Virus record (IMG/VR): IMGVR_UViG_3300022934_000144
Span: 1-27,181 of that record
Length of the DNA: 27,181 bases
DNA from: a virus
Reading direction: 5' to 3' (one strand)
The stretch's first letter is position 1; every line of letters begins with the position of its first letter. The notes below the pieces were generated by a model, which saw only the letters and a program-made list of their open reading frames with translations, was not told the DNA's origin and did no database searches. This document shows positions 14,065 through 14,912 of the stretch, piece by piece. Made by a program: the position numbers and the translations under genes.

Positions 14065-14143
14065 CACCTTGCGCCTTGCGGGCTTAAACTTCTTAATAAA
14101 TGTTTTAAAAAATAAGATAGGGCGACCGGAGCCGCCCATATCA

Positions 14144-14332
14144 TTAGCCGTGTAGTATTTCACTTAACTCGCCATCCCATGCGTCATCATTAGCGCACTC
14201 GATTGCATCACGCGGAGTCATGCCGCAGTCGTAATAGTCACGCCATGTTGCATCGGCTAGATCGTGAATGCCGAGTCCTATCATATTGGTTAGGACGCGG
14301 TTGCATTCTTTTTCAAACTGTTCATATGTCAT
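14144..14332 (-). CDS. Small hypothetical phage protein with structured leader
   Basis: 62 residues: MTYEQFEKECNRVLTNMIGL, then HDLADATWRDYYDCGMTPRD. Acidic and helical, with several aromatic residues; no known domain. The ATG has GGAG seven bases upstream, and this Shine-Dalgarno is complementary to a loop of the pseudoknot candidate directly upstream (14355-14417). Translation is therefore likely regulated. It lies downstream of the winged-helix gene within a cassette flanked by 60-bp direct repeats. Confidence 0.72.
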   Translation of the reverse strand: MTYEQFEKECNRVLTNMIGLGIHDLADATWRDYYDCGMTPRDAIECANDDAWDGELSEILHG

Positions 14333-14336
14333 AGAT

Positions 14337-14417
14337 CATCTCCAATAAAAGAGACCGCGCCACACTTGGGAGATGTCCCGTCACAGTGGCGCGGCCAGTT
14401 ACCATTATGTGACGGGA
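14337..14417 (-). ncRNA. Candidate H-type pseudoknot leader with anti-Shine-Dalgarno loop
   Basis: Read on the minus strand, starting directly after the stop of the winged-helix gene: stem 1 strand TCCCGTCACA (14417-14408), a 13-base loop, stem 2 strand CCGCGCCAC (14394-14386), then with no gap stem 1 return TGTGACGGGA (14385-14376), a 12-base loop, and stem 2 return GTGGCGCGG (14363-14355). Both stems are perfect (10 and 9 bp) and interleaved. The second loop contains CATCTCCCAA, complementary to the Shine-Dalgarno region TTGGAGATG (14345-14337) of the next gene. This is sequence-visible; the regulatory function is inferred. Confidence 0.65.
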
Positions 14418-14912
14418 TTACTTAAACGCTCGTATATCTTTCAAGTGATACTTATATTTACCTTGAGCACCGAACCGTTGACGCTTGAACTTTAACGTAT
14501 GCGGTATCTCACGCTTGACTGCTGGGATCAGAGTCGTGCGAACCGTGCCGATCTTCAACTTAACACGATTAGATAACTCACGATGTGAGAGCCAGCCACC
14601 TTGCAACAGCTCAATTGCCATGTGAACTTTGGTAGGTGATACCTTTGGACGCTGATCCGAGTTTGACCGCACAGCATTCATTGCCTTGTATGATATGGCG
14701 CGGCGCTTTTCTTCCGCAGCCGTATCGTTATTAAACACACGCTCCAAAAGCATTCCATTAGCGTGGTCAACTAACTTGTTATAGTCTAGTTGATTCGATA
14801 CAAACTGTTCGATCACGCGGACAGACTGCAACAAATCGCTGTTAGTTGGATCAGAGTTTAACATAATCACCGTCATATGGTGGCGGATATGTTCTTGTTC
14901 GTTGTGTTCCAT
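14418..14912 (-). CDS. Winged-helix DNA-binding protein, probable phage regulator
   Basis: 164 residues. The N-terminal half is helical and acidic. The C-terminal part, KVHMAIELLQGGWLSHRELS then KLKIGTVRTTLIPAVKRE and a wing-like FKRQRFGAQGKYKYHL, reads as a winged helix-turn-helix. AAAGGAG is well placed upstream of the ATG. It is the first gene of the left arm, divergent from the packaging arm. Its upstream region has TTGGAC and TGTTAT hexamers around a perfect GGGAT inverted repeat, consistent with autoregulation. It may set the early/late balance; that is inference. Confidence 0.7.
   Translation of the reverse strand: MEHNEQEHIRHHMTVIMLNSDPTNSDLLQSVRVIEQFVSNQLDYNKLVDHANGMLLERVFNNDTAAEEKRRAISYKAMNAVRSNSDQRPKVSPTKVHMAIELLQGGWLSHRELSNRVKLKIGTVRTTLIPAVKREIPHTLKFKRQRFGAQGKYKYHLKDIRAFK

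Follow-up and report, generated by a model that had tools for sequence, protein, structure and literature searches.

When two perfect inverted repeats interleave directly 3' of a stop codon, in the gap before the next gene of an uncultured marine or estuarine phage, what do they encode? The window, by which we mean the whole stretch of DNA analysed, is a 27-kb IMG/VR record (27,181 nucleotides). Its terminase is closest to those of pelagiphage HTVC027P, phage DSL-LC04 and phage 023Pt_psg01 (about 60-62% identity), and the window phage therefore belongs to that broad clade. A preliminary description of the locus read the repeats as a minus-strand pseudoknot and as a riboswitch or protein-controlled switch, in which one loop pairs with the Shine-Dalgarno (SD) sequence of the next gene. 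We favor another role. The element, which lies in the 3' untranslated region of a winged-helix gene, is probably an intrinsic terminator or attenuator between two cistrons that takes the form of an H-type pseudoknot and is tied to the ribosome via its first stem, a reading to which we give a probability of roughly 0.55.

Layout of the element

On the minus strand the order from 5' to 3' is TAA, followed by TCCCGTCACA-TAATGGTAACT-GGCCGCGCCAC-TGTGACGGGA-CATCTCCCAAGT-GTGGCGCGGTC-TCTTTTATT-GGAGATGATCT-ATG. Stem A joins the 5' arm TCCCGTCACA (14417-14408) to the 3' arm A', TGTGACGGGA (14385-14376), both identified in the sequence and by covariation. The interleaved order A-B-A'-B' of perfect stems, all of their minus-strand coordinates, the 10 bp of stem A, the absence of any base between B and A' and the loops of 13 and 12 nt were found as first described. 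The nine perfect pairs of stem B (CCGCGCCAC, 14394-14386, with GTGGCGCGG, 14363-14355) are also present, but they understate its length: with a GG/UC extension the stem has 11 bp (GGCCGCGCCAC, 14396-14386, with GTGGCGCGGTC, 14363-14353), and this extension covaries across alleles as GG/UC, GA/UC and AG/CU. Loop L1 has 13 nt (TAATGGTAACTGG) if stem B is counted as 9 bp and 11 nt (14397-14407) if it is counted as 11 bp, and loop L3 is CATCTCCCAAGT (12 nt, 14375-14364). Directly 3' of stem B there is a terminator-like U-tract, UCUUUUAUU (14352-14344), and then the GGAG core of the downstream SD (14343-14340). The whole window has just one site where perfect stems, each with 9 bp or more, interleave; 200 dinucleotide shuffles contained on average 0.01 such pairs, and any such pair appeared in 0.5% of them.

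Three features were absent from the preliminary description, namely the abutting stop codon, the U-tract directly behind B' and the compensatory changes in relatives. The stop codon (TAA, 14420-14418) adjoins stem A and belongs to P0002, a gene of 164 aa (14418-14912, minus strand) with a winged-helix, DNA-binding-like C-terminal domain, as judged from its translation, an alignment of relatives, AlphaFold and Foldseek. In the AlphaFold model of the homologue from allele L007, this domain has the order H-H-H-E-E with pLDDT of about 80-94, and Foldseek matched the model to ArsR/MarR-type winged helices at E of about 5e-3. The downstream gene, P0001 (62 aa, 14144-14332, minus strand), is DUF5419-like (phrog_519).

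Across alleles the loops (L1 10-11, L2 0-1 and L3 11-13 nt) are compatible with simultaneous formation of both stems. Folds without a pseudoknot, in which stem B encloses a small inner hairpin, have an energy similar to that of the pseudoknot. Loop L1 contains an AUG in all eight alleles (14405-14403 in the window) with no evident SD. A leader peptide starting there was rejected, because the reading frames behind it differ among alleles owing to loop indels. We also considered a 5' hairpin in which the A arm and L1 would pair as CCAU/AUGG; seven alleles seemed to keep it, but it was discarded because L190 has lost it.

Conservation and covariation in relatives

Alleles were collected from relatives of the downstream 62-aa protein, from two degenerate DNA scans and from a stem descriptor scan of the fetched loci. 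They gave eight distinct alleles, all from one phage group: the window (identical to L002), L007 with its identical copies, L012, L013, L020, L021, L034 and the more divergent L190. Standard pairs occupy 158 of the 160 pair cells of both stems, and six pairs are changed on both sides (positions 4, 5 and 7 of A, and 1, 2 and 8 of B). The compensatory changes that the preliminary description proposed to look for in homologues are thus present in both stems, three doubly changed pairs in each. When the alignment was restricted to six alleles without gap problems, all pair cells (100%) were standard. Five pairs had changed on both sides in this set, compared with 1.9 on average after shuffling (2/500 shuffles), and controls in which the partner was displaced by 1-3 columns had 0-1. 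Because the eight alleles keep both stems in this way, we consider the H-type pairing to be real, and its conservation in evolution as A-B-A'-B' is well supported. The covariation supports both stems, but it cannot show that A and B form simultaneously.

G-U wobbles occur in both stems and fit minus-strand RNA only, which identifies that RNA as the functional molecule; plus-strand RNA was rejected because the wobbles would turn into A-C mismatches. Over the 78 nt from the stop codon, the window is 73-87% identical to the other alleles, and the coding DNA just upstream is 52-58% identical. The upstream protein is very different among the window, L190 and the remaining alleles, with about 25-33% identity between the window and the L007-type alleles. 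The stop codon abuts stem A in 8/8 alleles, the sequence of L013 being cut off after a few codons.

Neither the element nor the upstream protein had a match among isolated phages. Besides the same phages, loose pattern scans gave chance matches only, both in IMG/VR and, among the matches listed, in GTDB genomes. Rfam 15 had no match at the gathering score; up to E = 10 there were two chance matches, far below the gathering score, and none to SAM-II or preQ1. The element is a small RNA that is absent from Rfam.

Evidence for a proposed role in transcription termination

In all eight alleles a U-rich tract, interrupted in most of them, lies directly 3' of the GC-rich stem B. The tail is UCUUUUAUU in the window and UUUUUAUA in L190, where CUUUUUUAUA makes it stronger. 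A GC-rich stem of 11 bp followed by at least 6 T in 8 was found at a rate of 0.005 per shuffled window. Further evidence comes from L034. Behind the DUF5419-like gene of the window there is an ordinary terminator, GGGCGGCTCCGGTCGCCC plus TATCTTATTT (14120-14137, minus strand). In L034 the two U-tracts are joined, and that of the element leads directly into the sequence that follows this ordinary terminator in L012, L190 and the window, so that the pseudoknot sits where the ordinary terminator was. The junction is best explained by a deletion between two similar U-tracts, after which no structure other than the pseudoknot would precede the next conserved, promoter-like region. Both this junction and the U-tract that immediately follows stem B point to transcription termination. 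To judge from the sequence, some transcripts probably end at the U-tract.

Some features count against termination. The tail is interrupted and short before the SD in 6/8 alleles (UCUUUUAUU), and the 21-24 nt between the arms of B are long for a terminator. A tail of the UCUUUUAUU type could instead be a U-rich translation enhancer, and in L021 a similar U-tract precedes an SD without any hairpin.

According to the mechanism that we propose, the minus-strand RNA would fold from the stop codon onward into an H-type pseudoknot with stems of 9-10 bp (A) and 11 bp (B). Stem B and the U-tract would act as an intrinsic terminator or a partial attenuator; some transcripts would end behind the winged-helix gene, and others would read through into the small downstream genes. 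When a stop codon occupies the A site, the ribosome covers about ten further nucleotides. Since stem A starts at the stop codon and this footprint is about as long as the A arm, a terminating ribosome should open stem A by covering the 9-10 nt of that arm. With the ribosome in place, stem B could form nonetheless and enclose a GGG/CCC hairpin; in the absence of the ribosome the full pseudoknot would form. Opening of stem A, itself deduced from the layout, may raise or lower termination. A stronger version of this idea, which we regard as speculative and a good deal less probable than termination as such, is that the element is a ribosome-sensing attenuator. The terminating ribosome would itself be the signal; by occupying stem A exactly it would select between the pseudoknot and a plain terminator hairpin that contains an inner GGG/CCC helix, and so couple translation of the regulator to downstream transcription without a leader peptide or a ligand. 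If termination is true, a terminator with a pseudoknot fold beginning at the stop codon would tie downstream transcription to upstream translation in a compact manner.

Alternative roles

The switch proposed at first, in which L3 pairs with the downstream SD in competition with stem B, perhaps under the control of a ligand or a protein, now seems unlikely. Its central observation was confirmed: CATCTCC (14375-14369) is complementary to GGAGATG (14343-14337) over 7 bp. The complementarity is also 7 bp in L013 and L021 (one G-U in the latter) and 6 bp in L190, but just 5 bp in L007, L020 and L012, and the first position past the fixed core matches in 4/7 alleles, which is chance level (permutation P = 0.11). 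Among the eight alleles we did not find the pairing kept by compensatory change wherever the element occurs. The interpretation as a riboswitch or SD switch does not fit L034, where both stems and the TTCTCCC loop are kept and neither an SD nor a gene follows. When the pseudoknot stems were masked and topology was ignored, L3 paired with the SD at P of 0.9-1.0 in 6/7 alleles, so energy alone does not exclude the pairing. However, every nested ensemble gave a P(L3:SD) of 0.000, in L190 the value was 0 despite masking of the stems, and displacing the 11-bp stem B would cost about 24-26 kcal/mol. The TCTCCC of L3 is identical in 8/8 alleles, including L034 with no SD. Within the loop of B it is able to pair with the GGG of A', as seen in minimum-energy folds, and this predicted GGG/CCC pairing can explain its invariance in a way other than SD pairing. 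The SD itself also occurs apart from the element, since GGAGATGAT precedes the DUF5419-like gene in L021/L200, which have no pseudoknot there; the presence of this TTTTATTGGAGATGAT site indicates that it was inherited with that gene.

About as doubtful is a role as a 3'-end element, which would protect the 3' end of the winged-helix mRNA or yield a stable small RNA and take no part in termination or translation. The fold is compact and stable, and it is always found at the upstream stop codon, whichever downstream gene follows and even where there is none. That gene is DUF5419-like in the window, L007, L012 and L013 and another small gene in L020, L021 and L190, and L034 has none; the element thus travels with the stop codon of the upstream gene and not with one downstream gene. 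Pure protection, however, needs no conserved U-tract.

Still less probable is that a protein of the phage or of the host binds the element, for instance the upstream product in autoregulation of the T4 gene 32 pseudoknot kind. There is a phage precedent in gp32, which binds a pseudoknot upstream of its own ribosome-binding site (PMC3014915), and both L1 and L3 have conserved residues. The element accompanies a gene that lies 5' of it, not 3', which counts against this role. The upstream protein, at about 25-33% identity for the window against the L007-type alleles, is also far less conserved than the RNA region (73-87%), which does not suggest co-evolution of the two.

Recoding at the abutting stop by readthrough or frameshift is very improbable: readthrough signals usually are laid out, as here, with a pseudoknot right behind a stop codon, but there is no spacer, an SD and a start codon belong to the next gene itself, and a second in-frame TAA three codons past the stop, inside A/L1, excludes readthrough in four alleles (L007, L020, L021 and L190) and so largely refutes this possibility.

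Comparison with known systems

The terminator that we prefer resembles ordinary intrinsic (Rho-independent) terminators in that a GC-rich 11-bp stem is followed by a U-rich tail between genes on the same strand, and in that it occupies the place of an ordinary terminator in L034. Unlike them, it has a hairpin loop linked to an upstream arm whose first base adjoins the stop codon, which makes it an H-type pseudoknot; the 21-24 nt between the arms and the interrupted U-tract are further differences. A limited open-access literature search found no pseudoknotted intrinsic terminator of this layout described, which is weak evidence of novelty. To our knowledge, pseudoknots supported by covariation are rare in mRNAs of dsDNA phages.

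With the T4-type gene 32 pseudoknot the element shares the H-type fold, the dsDNA phage mRNA and a position upstream of a ribosome-binding site. The T4 pseudoknot, however, lies in the gene 32 5' leader, 67 nt before the start codon, and is followed by A+U-rich repeats bound by gp32, and a 2010 review considered that T4-type knots are possibly the only viral ones used in translational autoregulation (PMC3014915). Our element follows a stop codon, has a U-tract and lacks the constant downstream gene before which an operator of the gene 32 type would lie: the gene differs between alleles or is absent. SAM-II and preQ1 riboswitches have a similar H-type topology near an SD, but the pseudoknot here does not include the SD, one allele has no SD at all, and there is no Rfam match. 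The activating pseudoknots of timP and IncI repZ are likewise tied to the translation state near a ribosome-binding site. In IncI repZ, translation of the gene that follows depends on the pseudoknot. The same requirement has been reported for timP (PMC11228461). Our element, in contrast, survives without any following gene (L034). In type III toxin-antitoxin systems (ToxI-like RNA), too, a small gene is preceded by a pseudoknotted RNA and a terminator. Their antitoxins consist of pseudoknots repeated in tandem, and this candidate was rejected because there is one element copy per contig (the exception being G005, with a 19-nt tail/SD repeat) and the downstream gene is DUF5419-like, not a ToxN-like endoribonuclease.

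Neighboring and similar structures

In relatives that lack the pseudoknot, plain hairpins precede the same downstream gene, with a U-tract in L204, L205 and L210. The hairpins of these three are terminator-like and stand at the corresponding position, for example CCGGGCCAGC TTGC GCTGGCCCGG TTTCGTTT; in L205 and L210, TTTCTCCCG lies just 3' of the stop codon. L021 has a second TTTTATTGGAG before its DUF5419-like gene.

Junctions of gene loss or gain fall in a shared TTTTATT(GGAG) motif, as seen in L034 (1500-1560) against L012, L190 and the window (14140-14100), and in L021 (3000-3060). In L034 the small gene or genes between two U-tracts were seemingly lost. Judging by such junctions, the terminator-like tails look like recombination sites for small gene cassettes, and hence like places of small-gene swap or loss in these phages.

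Behind the operon there is a conserved intergenic stretch (window 14070-13940, minus strand; L190 about 2860-2960; L034 about 1570-1700), which contains GTCAATGTCAAAC..TTGACAC and CATGTGCTACGATACACG. In L190 it has two copies of the palindrome GTCAAACGTTTGAC. It is possible that this stretch is a promoter or operator, perhaps a target of the winged-helix protein.

Elsewhere in the window (2899-2848, minus strand) there is another GC-rich 11-bp stem with a long loop, followed by a T-rich tail. At 3514-3460 (minus strand), interleaved perfect 8-bp stems (CGTCACAG/CTGTGACG and TATCTTCA/TGAAGATA) lie inside a coding gene (phrog_2402); any pair of this kind appeared in 2.5% of shuffles.
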